Part shown: in pieces, positions 21,006 through 26,944 of the stretch
Layout: every line of letters begins with the position of its first letter
How positions within the stretch are numbered: position 1 is the first letter of the stretch
Origin: an uncultured Geobacteraceae bacterium
Lineage (GTDB): Bacteria; Desulfobacterota; Desulfuromonadia; Geobacterales; Pseudopelobacteraceae
DNA: 35,267 bases
NCBI GenBank assembly: GCA_903958085.1
Contig: CAJBRY010000545.1
Location: 1-35,267 of the forward strand
Direction of reading: 5' to 3'
Made by a program: the position numbers and the translations under genes
The notes under the pieces: model-generated
Database searches by the model: none
What the model was told of the DNA's origin: nothing
The model's input: the letters and a program-made list of their open reading frames with translations, nothing else

Positions 21006-21350
21006 ATGGACACTGCAACCAGAGACAGAAACAAAGACATCAGGCTGCTTGGAAAATTTGTTGAAGTGTATTGTGACGGTAGACATTCTGGAATCGAGCA
21101 CGTGACAGTAACTTTGTCTGACGGACTTGGTAGCCGGATGATTTGTCCAGAGTGTCGAAGTTTCCTGGAGTACGCCATAGTGAAAAGAGTTAACTGCCCC
21201 CTTGTAGATGAAAAACCAAGTTGCAAGCATTGCCGCGTACACTGCTATGACAAGCTACATCGTGAGAAAGTAAAGGAAATAATGGCGTTCGCCGGATTGA
21301 GACTGATGTTGCGTGGAAGACTCGATTATATCTGGCACTATTTCTTTTAA
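21006..21350 (+). CDS. YgbA-like nitrous oxide-stimulated promoter family protein
   Basis: The 114-residue protein matches the YgbA_NO family. It has a cysteine pattern with YC near residue 23, MICPEC in the middle, and the signature EKPSCKHCRVHCYDKLHREKVKEIMAFAGLR near the end (Escherichia coli has EKPACKQCPVHCY and KQIMRWAGPRM). Members are induced by nitric oxide in enterobacteria, and the conserved cysteines suggest a metal or Fe-S site. There is no recognisable ribosome binding site, and the predicted transcription start is only a few bases before the ATG, so the message could be leaderless. The FrdX-like gene starts 40 bases later. Confidence 0.85.
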   Translation: MDTATRDRNKDIRLLGKFVEVYCDGRHSGIEHVTVTLSDGLGSRMICPECRSFLEYAIVKRVNCPLVDEKPSCKHCRVHCYDKLHREKVKEIMAFAGLRLMLRGRLDYIWHYFF

Positions 21351-22228: not shown

Positions 22229-22756
22229 ATGCCTGCATCGATTGAAATTGTCCTGACTGATATAACCACCTTGGCCGTGGATGCTATTGTTAACGCTGCT
22301 AACAACACTCTTTTGGGTGGTGGAGGTGTTGACGGTGCCATTCATCGCGCTGCCGGACCTCTACTGTTGCAAGAGTGCACCACTCTGCATGGGTGCGAAA
22401 CAGGAGATGCCAAAATAACTCAGGGATACAAGCTACCAGCCAGACACGTTATACACACTGTAGGACCTGTTTGGCATGGCGGGGGCAAAGGTGAAGCGGA
22501 GTTATTGAAATCATCGTATCATCGCTGTTTCGAAGTTGCACAGCAGCATGGGATTAAAAGCATCGCATTTCCGGCCATAAGTGCGGGAGTTTACGGCTAC
22601 CCTATGCATGAGGCGGCTGCTATCGCTCTTTCGTCTGTTAATCCAGCCGTAGAAATGAACCCGCAATTGGAAAGGATTATTTTTGCTCTGTTCAGCATGG
22701 AGGCTCGGCAAATTTATCTTGAAACGGCAAAACGGGCAGGAATTACCTGTAAATAA
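22229..22756 (+). CDS. Macro domain protein, O-acetyl-ADP-ribose deacetylase (YmdB/MacroD-type)
   Basis: The 175-residue protein is a single macro domain. It has the ligand-binding segment [27 protein letters not shown] in its first third, and [16 protein letters not shown] for the phosphate loop. Family members bind ADP-ribose and remove acetyl groups from O-acetyl-ADP-ribose or ADP-ribose from protein side chains. The asparagines and the Gly-rich loop expected for activity are all present. The start has a GGAGAG ribosome binding site. It is convergent with the response regulator at 22769, 12 bases away. Its substrate here is unknown. Confidence 0.93.
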
Positions 22757-23462: not shown

Positions 23463-23490
23463 TTGACAAGTTTAATAATTGTATTAAGAT
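23463..23490 (+). promoter_or_regulatory. Promoter of the short-gene unit
   Basis: TTGACA at 23463-23468 and TAAGAT at 23485-23490 are 16 bases apart in very AT-rich sequence. The expected transcription start is near 23497, about 46 bases before the short ORF. Confidence 0.6.
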
Positions 23491-23542
23491 AAAAAGTATC
23501 CTGTTAGGAATTAAATAATAAACACGAAAGGAGACCCTGCCA

Positions 23543-23605
23543 ATGTGGACTGCAAGATTTAGAATTCGTCCGGTTTCCCACTGCAAAGAGGGTTGCCATA
23601 GTTAG
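23543..23605 (+). CDS. Candidate 20-residue peptide gene (or coding leader/small RNA)
   Basis: The ORF encodes MWTARFRIRPVSHCKEGCHS. It is preceded by AAAGGAGA nine to ten bases before the ATG, a good ribosome binding site. It has its own promoter at 23463 and its own strong terminator at 23635, so the transcript would be about 180 bases. The peptide is basic (three Arg in alternation at 5, 7 and 9) and ends with two Cys and two His. A GCCCGC/GCGGGC hairpin (23605-23628) overlaps the stop codon. I do not recognise the peptide. Options are a secreted or modified peptide, a regulatory leader, or a small RNA in which the ORF is accidental. It precedes a macAB-like exporter and an M16 peptidase. 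Confidence 0.45.
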   Translation: MWTARFRIRPVSHCKEGCHS

Positions 23606-23634
23606 CCCGCTGCTGGAAAGTTGCGGGCGACCAG

Positions 23635-23674
23635 AAAAAAGGCCCCCCTGTCTATGGATAGGGGGGCCTTTTTT
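23635..23674 (+). terminator. Strong rho-independent terminator of the short-gene unit
   Basis: A perfect 14-bp stem (six A then GGCCCCCC, paired with GGGGGGCC then six T) has a 12-base loop and is followed by CTTTTATTTT. It is the strongest terminator in the window. The loop contains CTATGG, complementary to CCATAG at 23596-23601 in the short ORF, which might be chance. Confidence 0.9.
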
Positions 23675-23682
23675 CTTTTATT

Positions 23683-23759: not shown

Positions 23760-25010
23760 ATGAAAAAATACGTTGTCATAATGTCAGTAATAATTTTAAT
23801 CGCTGGCATTGCCGGATATTTTTACTACAAACGAACTCCGGAAATTAAGTACAAAACTGCTCCAATTGAACGGGGCTCGATAGTCTCATCAGTTGCCGCG
23901 ACCGGCAATCTTTCTGCTGTTACAACTGTTCAGGTAGGCACTCAAGTTTCAGGAACAATCCAGAAAATTTACGTTGACTTTAATTCACGAGTAAATAAAG
24001 GGCAGGCAATCGCTGAAATAGATCCGTCTTTGTTCAATGCTTCGGTCGAGCAATCTCAGGGAAACTATTTAAGTGCCGAGGCCAATTTGCAAAAGGCTAA
24101 AGTTGCACTTGCTGATGCTGAACGTACCTTGAAACGTAACAAAAAAATGCTGGCAGATGGTATTATTTCTCAGGGAGATTTTGACGTAACCGAGACAACG
24201 GTACAATCCTTAAAGGCCGCAGTTAAAGCTGCTGAAGGGGTGCTTGGACAGACTCGCGGCTCCCTGATGCAGTCAAGAACCAATCTGCGTTACTCAGTTA
24301 TTCGTTCACCGGTAGATGGTGTGGTTATATCCCGTGCAGTGGATGTGGGCCAGACTGTAGCGGCATCATTCTCAACGCCGACACTGTTCACTATTGCCCA
24401 GGACCTTACCAAAATGCAGATTGAAGTCAGTGTTGATGAAGCTGACATCAGTCGTATTTTGCTCGAGCAGAAAGCTACCTTCACAGTCGATTCCTACCCT
24501 GAGCAGACCTTTAAGGGAAAAGTGATTCAGATCCGCAGCGCACCGATCATCACACAGAATGTTGTTACATATGTTGTTGTCGTTAATGTTGATAATAGCG
24601 ATATGAAATTGAAGCCTGGTATGACCGCAAACGTATCTATTGAAGTTGCCAAGAAGGATGATGTTCTGAAACTTCCTCCAGCCGCTCTGCGGTTCAAGCC
24701 GAAGACTAATGCTGATGAAGCAAAAGAAAAGGGCAACGGAGCTTCCGGGCAAAAAACGGCAAATACCGTGGCAACAGCTGGCGGGAAAGGTGCTCCGGGA
24801 AAGGGACGTGATAAGAGCCAGAAGGTATATCTGCTGAAAGAGGGAAAGCCGGTGGCTGTTCAGATTAAAAGTGGAATCGCAAACAACAACAGCATTGAAC
24901 TGGTCGAGAGTGAATTAAAGGAGGGCGATGAGGTCATTATTGAACAGATTGGTGCCGATTCAAAGAAAAAGGCAGCAAGCGGCAGTTCACCGATGGGGCC
25001 AAGATTTTAG
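23760..25010 (+). CDS. MacA-like periplasmic adaptor of an ABC export system
   Basis: The 416-residue protein has a single N-terminal membrane anchor (about 4-23). Adaptor modules follow: a first lipoyl half (VQVGTQVSGTIQKIYVDFNSRVNKGQ), a helical hairpin (about 95-170), a second lipoyl half (SVIRSPVDGVVISRAVDVGQTV) and a beta-barrel region (residues 225-300). A Gly/Lys/Ala-rich insert near 320-350 is unusual in length. The C-terminal membrane-proximal part is intact. It should couple an inner membrane MacB-type transporter to a TolC-type channel. The last base of its stop codon is the first base of the next gene's GTG start, implying coupling. Confidence 0.92.
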   Translation: MKKYVVIMSVIILIAGIAGYFYYKRTPEIKYKTAPIERGSIVSSVAATGNLSAVTTVQVGTQVSGTIQKIYVDFNSRVNKGQAIAEIDPSLFNASVEQSQGNYLSAEANLQKAKVALADAERTLKRNKKMLADGIISQGDFDVTETTVQSLKAAVKAAEGVLGQTRGSLMQSRTNLRYSVIRSPVDGVVISRAVDVGQTVAASFSTPTLFTIAQDLTKMQIEVSVDEADISRILLEQKATFTVDSYPEQTFKGKVIQIRSAPIITQNVVTYVVVVNVDNSDMKLKPGMTANVSIEVAKKDDVLKLPPAALRFKPKTNADEAKEKGNGASGQKTANTVATAGGKGAPGKGRDKSQKVYLLKEGKPVAVQIKSGIANNNSIELVESELKEGDEVIIEQIGADSKKKAASGSSPMGPRF

Positions 25011-25714
25011 TGAGTGTCGTTATTTCTCTGACCGATATCCGCCGGGTTTTCACCATGGGGGATCAACAGTTTGAGGCGCTGAAAGGTGTCTCCTTCGATG
25101 TTTCCTCCGGTGAATTTGTTGCCATAATGGGGGCTTCCGGCAGTGGCAAGTCAACGAGCATGAATATCCTCGGCTGTCTGGATCTCCCCACTTCCGGTCG
25201 TTATCTTCTTGACGGAATCGATGTCGGTGGAATGACGACTAACCAGTTGGCCGATATCCGCAATAAAAAGCTTGGCTTCGTGTTTCAGGGTTTTAATCTC
25301 CTGGCTCGCACACCTGCAGTTGAAAATGTTGAACTACCTTTAGTATATGCCGGCCTTGCCTCTAAAGATCGTCGCAAAAAAGCCATGATGGCAATGGAGC
25401 AGGTTGGACTTTCCGGTAAGGAAAATAACCATTCTGGTCAGCTTTCAGGTGGCCAGCAGCAAAGGGTAGCAATTGCTCGCGCGTTGGTTAACGATCCAGC
25501 TGTTATTCTGGCTGACGAACCAACCGGCAACCTTGACAGCACCACTACGGAAGAGATTATGGGACTCTTTACATCGCTTAACAGGCAGGGGATTACGATT
25601 ATCATGGTCACCCATGAGCATGATGTCGCTGCTTATGCCGGGCGGCAGATAACCTTTAAAGACGGCAGAATAATTTCGGACACTCAGACAATCCATACCG
25701 GTAAGACGGCTTAA
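25010..25714 (+). CDS. ABC transporter ATP-binding protein (MacB/LolD-type)
   Basis: The 234-residue ATPase has a Walker A motif (GASGSGKST), a Q-loop ([10 protein letters not shown]), the signature [15 protein letters not shown], Walker B plus catalytic Glu ([12 protein letters not shown]) and the switch His (MVTHEH). The GTG start overlaps the adaptor stop by one base. Escherichia coli MacB has ATPase and permease in one chain; here they are two genes. It powers mechanotransmission-type export through the permease encoded three bases downstream. Confidence 0.95.
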
Positions 25715-25717
25715 TAC

Positions 25718-26944
25718 ATGAACTTTCTGCAAACGGTAAAAATTGCCCTCCGTGCTCTTCGTACCAACAAAATGCGTTCCTTCCTGACCATGCTTGGCAT
25801 CATTATCGGAATTGCCGCAGTAATTGCCATGATGGCAGTCGGCACAGGCGCCAGTTACGTCATCTCGCAACAAATTGCCAGTATCGGAAGCAATATTATT
25901 CTTGTTATGCCCGGTTCTACAACAAGTGGTGGACTTCGTACCGGCACCGGTGGGGCTCAGACTCTTTCGAGTGACGATGCCAAGGCTATCATGGCAGATT
26001 GTCCCTCTGTTGCTTACGCCGCAGGAACTGTTAGAACTGCAGGGCAGATAATCAACGGCAATTTGAACTGGTCGTCTGTTATCATGGGCGGGTCGCCAGA
26101 GCTCTTTGATATTCGTGAGTGGCCAGTCGTCAATGGACGTCCAATTAACCAGCAGGATGAGGATGGTGCTATCAAAGTCTGTTTGCTGGGGCAGACAGTT
26201 GCAGAAAATCTTTTCGGCTCTGCAGATCCGGTTGGGAGCATAATTAGAATCAAAAAAATTCCGTTTACCGTGATAGGCATTCTGGACAGAAAAGGGCAAT
26301 CGCCTCAGGGGCAGGATCAGGATGACGCCGTATTTGTCCCTTTGCGTACAGCACAACGGAATCTGGTGAGATCTCAAAGATCAGGAATTGTTAGTGCCAT
26401 TATTGTAAAGGCAAAAAGCGAGGAATCCATTAACAAGGCTGAAGACGAGATAAAGGCGCTTCTGAACCAGCGTCACAGGATTACCAACAGCAAGGAGCCG
26501 GATTTTTCAACCCGTAATCTTTCAGAAATCCTGGCGGTGGCTGAACAGTCATCAAAAGCCATGTCCATGCTACTTGGGGCTGTAGCTTCAATATCCCTGA
26601 TAGTCGGCGGAATCGGCATCATGAACATCATGCTGGTTTCTGTTACCGAACGTACCCGAGAGATAGGAATCAGGATGGCTATAGGAGCAAAAAAGAATGA
26701 TATTCTGCTCCAGTTTATGACAGAAGCAGTAATGCTTACAATGCTTGGGGGGCTAATTGGTATTGCTCTAGGGGCTGGTGGGGCGACGGTTGTTTCAAAA
26801 TTGCTCGGCTGGCCGACTATGATTTCAATCCAATCCATCACGATTGCATTTTTCTTTTCTGCTGCTGTTGGGATATTCTTTGGCTTTTATCCAGCAAAAA
26901 AGGCTGCTGGATTGAACCCAATTGACGCTTTGAGGTATGAATAA
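25718..26944 (+). CDS. MacB-like ABC permease (FtsX-type)
   Basis: The 408-residue permease has an N-terminal helix (about 18-42), a long periplasmic MacB-type core domain (about 50-270) and three C-terminal helices in an FtsX domain (about 280-400). Typical sequences are ALRTNKMRSFLTMLGIIIGIAAVI at the start, GGIGIMNIMLVSVTERTREIGIRMAIGA in the FtsX domain, and GFYPAKKAAGLNPIDALRYE at the end. It works with the ATPase and adaptor just upstream. Likely cargo for this family includes macrolides, peptides and lipopeptides; the true cargo is unknown. Confidence 0.94.
   Translation: MNFLQTVKIALRALRTNKMRSFLTMLGIIIGIAAVIAMMAVGTGASYVISQQIASIGSNIILVMPGSTTSGGLRTGTGGAQTLSSDDAKAIMADCPSVAYAAGTVRTAGQIINGNLNWSSVIMGGSPELFDIREWPVVNGRPINQQDEDGAIKVCLLGQTVAENLFGSADPVGSIIRIKKIPFTVIGILDRKGQSPQGQDQDDAVFVPLRTAQRNLVRSQRSGIVSAIIVKAKSEESINKAEDEIKALLNQRHRITNSKEPDFSTRNLSEILAVAEQSSKAMSMLLGAVASISLIVGGIGIMNIMLVSVTERTREIGIRMAIGAKKNDILLQFMTEAVMLTMLGGLIGIALGAGGATVVSKLLGWPTMISIQSITIAFFFSAAVGIFFGFYPAKKAAGLNPIDALRYE

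Follow-up and report, generated by a model that had tools for sequence, protein, structure and literature searches.

The window, the whole stretch of 35,267 nucleotides from an uncultured Geobacteraceae bacterium analysed here, contains a MacA-MacB ABC exporter operon that begins at 23760 and, before it, a compact unit formed by a promoter, an operator-like palindrome, a Shine-Dalgarno sequence, a 20-codon ORF, a hairpin and an intrinsic terminator (Table 1). Upstream of the unit are genes for a YgbA_NO protein (21006-21350, 5.6e-22) and a macro-domain protein (22229-22756, 3.7e-47). These upstream genes differ from those common to the other own-family loci compared.

Table 1. Features of the unit and genes linked to it
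Feature	Position	Strand	Details
Promoter, TTGACA-16 nt-TAAGAT	23463..23490	+	TTGACA 23463-23468, TAAGAT 23485-23490; 10/12 consensus positions
Operator-like palindrome ATCCTGTTAGGAAT	23498..23514	+	core CCTGTTAGG at 23500-23508; near the expected transcription start
Shine-Dalgarno sequence AAAGGAGA	23527..23534	+	8 nt 5' of the ATG at 23543
ORF of 20 codons, MWTARFRIRPVSHCKEGCHS	23543..23605	+	stop TAG 23603-23605; last conserved Cys codon 23594-23596
Constant-length 8-nt spacer, last Cys codon to structure	23597..23604	+	alignment of 67 units
Hairpin GCCCGCTGCTGGAAAGTTGCGGGC	23605..23628	+	its first base is the G of the stop TAG; alignment, 66 distinct sequences
Intrinsic terminator	23633..23676	+	scan: 20 pairs including A-U and G-U
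MacA-like membrane fusion protein	23760..25010	+	Pfam HlyD_D23 1.5e-23; linked gene, outside the unit
MacB-type ATPase	25010-25714	+	Pfam ABC_tran 8.9e-32; linked gene
MacB_PCD/FtsX permease	25718-26944	+	Pfam MacB_PCD 3.3e-55; linked gene

Expression signals of the unit and of its copies

An earlier note, made from the sequence alone, had described the promoter, the ribosome-binding site, the ATG-initiated 20-codon ORF and a stem overlapping the stop codon, and all four are present. The terminator it described is also present, with the 20 pairs of Table 1 and not the 14 that it gave. It had further judged such a density of expression signals unlikely to arise by chance. The unit is indeed real by conservation; promoter-like and terminator-like matches by themselves are unconvincing, the scan having returned 8 promoter-like sites where 2.9 are expected and 1 terminator-like site where 1.0 is expected. 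The transcript, 188 nt long, has a folding energy of -76.4 kcal/mol, where shuffles average -51.1 (z -5.86, none of 200 as low), a large share of this low energy being due to the terminator. The decisive evidence that the ORF is real is its conservation in relatives.

The aligned copies are of two types: type A, with peptides like RFRIRPVS[HR]CKEGC, and type B, with peptides like [YF][MK][LI]RPVT[RH]CKEGC. TTGAC is located upstream in 63 of the 67 units, one of the other four being N-masked there. AAAGGAG is found again in the relatives' units, as is the combination of Shine-Dalgarno sequence, ORF, hairpin and a second hairpin with a T-run. After removal of duplicates, terminator-like structures were identified by scan in 59/67 units and in 10/272 random stretches; the other eight units present T-runs with interrupted stems, as judged by eye. 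A macA homologue is found downstream in 32/40 units of the window's own family, in 7/13 type-B units and in none of the 14 type-A units of other families, the match beginning 89-233 nt past codon 20. Second copies within the own family lack it (0/4).

A motif of the form CCT-N2..5-AGG or -GGGA was identified in 31/38 macA-linked and 5/29 unlinked units (4.4% in mononucleotide shuffles), leaving out L008, with too little upstream sequence for the upstream-signal counts. This palindrome at the transcription start tracks macA linkage, which makes transcriptional control likely, and the copy in the window is possibly an operator common to macA-linked units. In the window's own genome the palindrome has two further matches, with 2 mismatches each. 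Several type-B units present CCTCGAGG or CCTCCGGGA in place of the palindrome.

Conservation of the peptide and of the hairpin

The 20-residue peptide was matched by tblastn in 56 of 58 related genomes (best E <=3.8e-4), several of which contain two copies at low E. Exceptions are G002 and G008, with completeness of 76% and 99% respectively. A profile built on 21 peptides identified 68/76 genomes of the family at E<=0.001, and in the window's own genome a second peptide amounts to at most one weak match (E 1.15). Invariant elements of the 21 peptide rows are the start, R9, C14, K15, E16, G17 and C18, and conservation is strongest in the residues closest to the last cysteine.

At the codon level, 52 distinct type A and B sequences were compared with no motif demanded; they were kept from the best-scoring stretch of 77 of 78 loci (L058 out, one below the score limit). 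On average, pairs of sequences differ by 0.108, 0.145 and 0.355 at codon positions 1, 2 and 3, and one-step codon variants are 20 synonymous to 9 nonsynonymous where 34 and 128 are possible. The bias is concentrated in codons 10-18 (13:2, possible 17:64), being mild in codons 3-9 (7:7, possible 17:46). A previous motif-based count gave 21:9 in 53 sequences, with a regular expression that fixed residues 10-18, and the motif-free repeat upheld the synonymous excess. All these ratios come from loci gathered by protein similarity or by motif pattern, so that kept amino acids are favoured in them. Judged from these substitutions, comparison shows the ORF to be under selection as a protein. The last cysteine codon is TGC in 52/53 type A and B sequences, a preference that hints at an additional constraint at this codon.

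The hairpin was compared in 67 aligned units (66 distinct once duplicates, also removed for the codon counts, were discarded). L199 was left out of this alignment and of part of the codon test because it carries a pseudoknot. In the alignment 90.6% of the cells are paired and changes on both sides occur in 8/10 pairs; none of 500 shuffles scored as high and versions slid along the alignment were 35-49% paired. The sequence comparisons that the earlier note had put forward, namely tblastn in related genomes, synonymous against nonsynonymous changes and covariance, came out on the side of the unit. Its condition for refutation, an ORF or RNA structure not conserved in relatives, therefore fails, both being conserved. 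The covarying hairpin and the compact terminated transcript would also fit a small regulatory RNA with an incidental ORF, a disfavoured reading of very low probability since third positions vary with the amino acids kept, as expected of a translated frame under selection.

No described family covers the unit at the cut-offs used, in agreement with the earlier remark that the peptide matches no known one. Rfam 15 gave no family in the window at gathering score, a single match in 15 loci (a c-di-GMP-I riboswitch, none at the unit), one in 6 further loci, again outside the unit, and nothing at E<=1 in 12 loci with the pseudoknot alone. At E<=5 there were 31 sub-gathering matches at the unit, nearly all over the terminator. 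The riboswitch is located at L049:10505-10581 (-), with 43 bits, in the locus of a relative and away from its unit. NCBIfam contains no family for the window peptide and gave one sub-threshold match for six related peptides (12.8 bits, cut-off 250), and Pfam contains none for seven peptides, with the consideration that peptides this short match poorly in both collections. The alternating arginines that the note had pointed out characterise this clade; the core common to the divergent form is [RP]-x-[VIT]-[AST]-[HR]-C-x-[ED]-G-C.

The divergent form, the 8-nt spacing and the moving stop codon

Outside the window's order the matches include short ORFs, for example MKRFMIPRVAHCSEGC, with an H-type pseudoknot, GTCCYGGGCANGACNNNAAACTGCCC, after them; peptides of this divergent form end in ..RPVAHCKEGC or ..PRVAHCSEGC. 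At E<=0.05 the peptide profile matched 48 genomes among 395 of the phylum, in many cases weakly. A pattern scan of species genomes gave at least 118 stretches, of which 80 were made into loci, a set that is no census; 79 are genuine by inspection and L175 was dropped as a chance match. Both the 8-nt distance and the pseudoknot's 5' part were required by this pattern, which left the 3' strand of helix 2 free. Record titles among the matches listed belong to at least eight phyla, some with a single locus: Omnitrophota, Zixibacteriota, Acidobacteria, Actinomycetota, Bacillota (Peptococcaceae, Moorella), Chloroflexi, KSB1, Auribacterota and deltaproteobacteria. The Omnitrophota locus L199, with MWITRYMLRPVTHCKEGC and a pseudoknot, joins type B and the divergent form. 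No match to the pseudoknot strands was found in the window's own genome. A mobile element was considered and rejected, the divergent pattern having no matches in viral contigs and the window's unit none in plasmids.

Among the matches listed, helix 1 of the pseudoknot is paired in 99.6% of the cells and helix 2, over six pairs, in 88.3%, with two-sided changes in 4/9 pairs and slid controls at 26-40%; pair 31-55 is formed in 41/77 only. In the same listed matches, neither the covariation score nor the number of cells with two-sided changes was reached in 500 shuffles. Other measures exceed the shuffles little (cells paired 92.1 against 90.9%, 3/500 shuffles; further pair types 187/500) because most sequences share one pairing. 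Comparison shows that both structures, the hairpin of the window's order and the H-type pseudoknot of the divergent form, are under selection as RNA. The divergent pattern fixed six of 13 codons. In the seven codons outside it, variants among the matches listed are 17 synonymous to 14 nonsynonymous (possible 17:46), with differences of 0.367, 0.334 and 0.649 at the three positions.

Twelve loci of the window's relatives (L121, L124-L130 and L132-L135) present the pseudoknot between genes with no visible HC..GC ORF, 7 of them 14-38 nt past the end of a same-strand ORF. Eight protein pieces from these loci were scanned, not all of them downstream, and the downstream genes identified include cation-efflux, HMA-domain and UPF0060 proteins. 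The pseudoknot without the peptide ORF may represent a separate RNA element. In L090, L096 and L098 the peptide-pseudoknot unit lies in a frame open for 373-529 codons, possibly fused or spurious.

The distance between the peptide and the structure is constant. The last cysteine codon and the 8 nt that precede the stem form gapless columns in 67/67 aligned type A and B units of the order, and in divergent loci that came from protein searches the distance from the last cysteine codon to the pseudoknot is exactly 8 nt in 15/15. Twenty loci were put into this second check, 15 with a readable HC..GC and pseudoknot; L085, L086, L087, L089 and L094 fell outside the search expression (in L085 the distance, judged by eye, is 8 nt), while L100 and L101 were left out. 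In the 79 pattern loci the spacing was demanded by the pattern itself.

The stop codon moves. Seven of the 80 pattern loci (L144, L154, L163, L180, L201, L211 and L212) have the stop straight after the last cysteine, including both from Moorella; elsewhere in the divergent form, among the matches listed, it lies up to eight or more codons further. HCKEGC-TGA was identified in four relatives among seven fetched stretches, and in types A and B the stop is replaced by TGG, CGG or AGG in L005, L048, L051, L055, L056, L074 and L078, where the frame enters the hairpin. Because the 8-nt spacing is fixed, also across phyla, while the stop codon moves, it is Cys18 and not termination that sets the position of the structure. 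Fixed spacing with a moving stop is the key point beyond what the earlier note had seen, and the resulting placement is the main argument for an action on the ribosome that holds the nascent Cys18 peptide.

Neighbouring genes and a proposed pause at the last cysteine

The next gene of the divergent units is on the same strand in 58/79, on the opposite strand in 19/79 and absent in 2/79 of the matches listed. By mechanical ORF calls over these same listed matches, same-strand genes flank both sides in 48/79, the upstream side only in 11, the downstream side only in 8 and neither in 7, and 5/79 have no neighbour within the stretch examined. An Rrf2-like ORF is next in 18/79 divergent units among the matches listed (blastp grouping; L138 Pfam 8e-29). 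These Rrf2-linked units are, among the matches listed, L136, L138, L145, L151 and 14 others, most titled Omnitrophota, and in part of them ferredoxin, hybrid-cluster protein or flavoprotein-like genes then follow. In 30 proteins scanned, other neighbours included hybrid-cluster protein, hemerythrin, MsrAB, ArsP permease, ArsR, Metal_resist, peroxiredoxin and flavodoxin. Unrelated ones (sugar kinase, polysaccharide deacetylase, sporulation lipoprotein) occur too, and the description has no control set. Terminator-like hairpins follow 8/19 divergent units with an opposite-strand next gene and 9/58 with a same-strand one among the matches listed, against 24/400 random stretches.

The Rrf2-like ORFs, together with the macA genes after 32/40 own-family units, would suit a cysteine-responsive attenuation leader, in which starvation at the two cysteine codons keeps the structure folded and alters the next gene (macAB, or rrf2 in Omnitrophota). 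The structure would abut a ribosome with the last cysteine codon in its A site, and leaders with cysteine codons have been described (PMC1262725, PMC8632094). For the window unit, where the earlier note had named an attenuation leader as one option, it is not supported: a terminator is present in all 67 units, looks unconditional in the window, and macA follows none of the type-A units of other families. There is also no run of cysteine codons, the two being four apart, and R, K, E and G are as conserved in the order as the cysteines. An antiterminator switch between hairpin and terminator was unsupported as well, the 3' arm of the former and the 5' arm of the latter not co-varying: their pairing is -9.12 kcal/mol compared with -9.67 when arms are swapped among 59 units, 100/100 swaps being at least as strong. 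We regard attenuation as improbable. Another candidate pairing, between GCCCA in the Ala-His codons and UGGGC of the pseudoknot, looked tempting but was discarded because, as judged by eye, it fails to track the GAGC variants.

The same macAB linkage (own-family and type-B units) next to a very short conserved cysteine peptide would agree with a RiPP or cofactor precursor, synthesised on the ribosome and then modified, for which the adjacent MacAB may serve as exporter. We consider it still less probable than attenuation: no maturase recurs among the neighbours identified, a radical SAM gene having been seen once (L178); conservation extends to copies that lack macAB; and it leaves an RNA structure at fixed spacing without a reason.

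The main rival to pausing holds that the product is a free micro-peptide, about 18 residues long, with an HC...C site for handling thiols, metals or reactive nitrogen; the structure would then only tune translation or protect the mRNA. Conservation extending past the two cysteines, the unit's own promoter and terminator in the window's order, and the Rrf2, hybrid-cluster, hemerythrin, MsrAB, ArsP, Metal_resist and peroxiredoxin genes that adjoin divergent copies (with no control set) are in its favour. We hold it to be rather unlikely, given that such a peptide needs no fixed 8-nt spacing to an RNA structure and that its C-terminus is unconserved, with 0 to eight or more variable residues past the last cysteine, which is odd for an 18-residue effector.

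The reading best supported, plausible if a little short of probable, is that the ribosome is paused or arrested at the last cysteine codon by the nascent peptide together with the RNA structure. The ribosome would stop with Cys18 at the peptidyl-transferase centre, the two elements acting jointly: the RNA structure would be encountered by the front of a ribosome for which the last cysteine has just been incorporated or comes next, and the conserved residues would act from within the exit tunnel. The supply of cysteinyl-tRNA, or a ligand, may tune the pause. When the A site holds the Cys18 codon, the stem starts at +15 from the P-site codon, which we take to be the usual edge of the footprint. 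A chain of 18 residues is wholly inside the exit tunnel, and the tunnel-acting arrest peptides (TnaC, SecM and the Erm leaders) are conserved near their arrest site, may have a stop as the next codon and act on a gene in cis. The present family resembles them in that its conserved residues would fit in the tunnel, and residues conserved as amino acids near the presumed arrest site are found here as well. It differs in that the window unit is terminated before the next gene, arrest being here a proposal.

A stand-alone terminated unit offers no visible target for the pause, and this counts against pausing; alternatively, the structure may be conserved because it restricts translation or makes the mRNA more stable. 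In the Rrf2-linked divergent loci (the 18/79 among the matches listed) the state of the pseudoknot could control the rrf2-like gene in cis. A single cis target for the family is not apparent because 19/79 divergent loci, among the matches listed, have an opposite-strand next gene. In the window's order the output would be in trans, or the peptide itself, because the unit is separate from promoter to terminator. A more specific proposal, which we find unlikely, and slightly more so than the free micro-peptide, is that these are free-standing arrest mini-genes spread over several phyla, in which arrest at one cysteine acts in trans and not in cis. They might, for instance, sense cysteinyl-tRNA, thiol, metal or nitric oxide stress, with a readout through ribosome rescue or a released peptide.

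Two recoding systems were also compared. Bacterial SECIS elements are stem-loops at a set distance past a UGN codon, a placement that the present family shares; here the codon is UGC or UGU, in sequences that were collected by their cysteines, and the in-frame UGA of the fetched stretches noted above is the stop after the last cysteine. For -1 frameshifting, no slippery heptamer X XXY YYZ was seen by eye in GAR GGN TGY before the spacer.

The peptide strings were not found in the open-licence literature, where combinations of leader, pseudoknot and arrest, and Geobacter, gave analogues only; Geobacter is not mentioned in the main text of PMC6429828 and PMC8632094. The nearest described designs found are the LEU element (PMC1262725) and the uORFs before cysS and hflX (PMC8632094). 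The LEU element, in the leuA leader of Actinobacteria, has a run of leucine codons that pairs with the Shine-Dalgarno sequence of leuA and is described upstream of that gene. It shares with the present family a short leader ORF and an RNA pseudoknot, whereas the present family has no codon run, fixed spacing, varied neighbours and many free-standing units. In PMC8632094, uORFC-8-2 is a cysS leader of Rhodobacterales with cysteine codons and uORFC-6-1 an hflX leader with Arg-Leu-Arg. Both are like the present family in combining a short ORF with an RNA structure, in the proposed action of a stalled ribosome and in the cysteine codons or the R-x-R. Each is described there as exclusively or mainly before one gene and exclusively or predominantly in one order, whereas the present family has record titles from at least eight phyla, keeps a conserved core in its peptide and lacks a single target gene.

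As far as searched, a mini-gene family formed by a short peptide core and a placed RNA structure is undescribed. The interpretation of the earlier note is partly supported overall, and of its proposals a peptide product and a dual-function RNA are possible readings of the window unit. The recurrence of versions of the peptide with a folded RNA at the same short distance in many bacterial groups suggests that ribosomes may be made to pause at one cysteine. The core extends from Moorella to Omnitrophota and to the window's order and is unmatched in the present searches of Rfam, Pfam and NCBIfam, which constitutes an annotation gap. If ribosomes are arrested on it, this would be an arrest system joining a peptide and an RNA structure, of unusually wide range and near several redox and metal stress genes.
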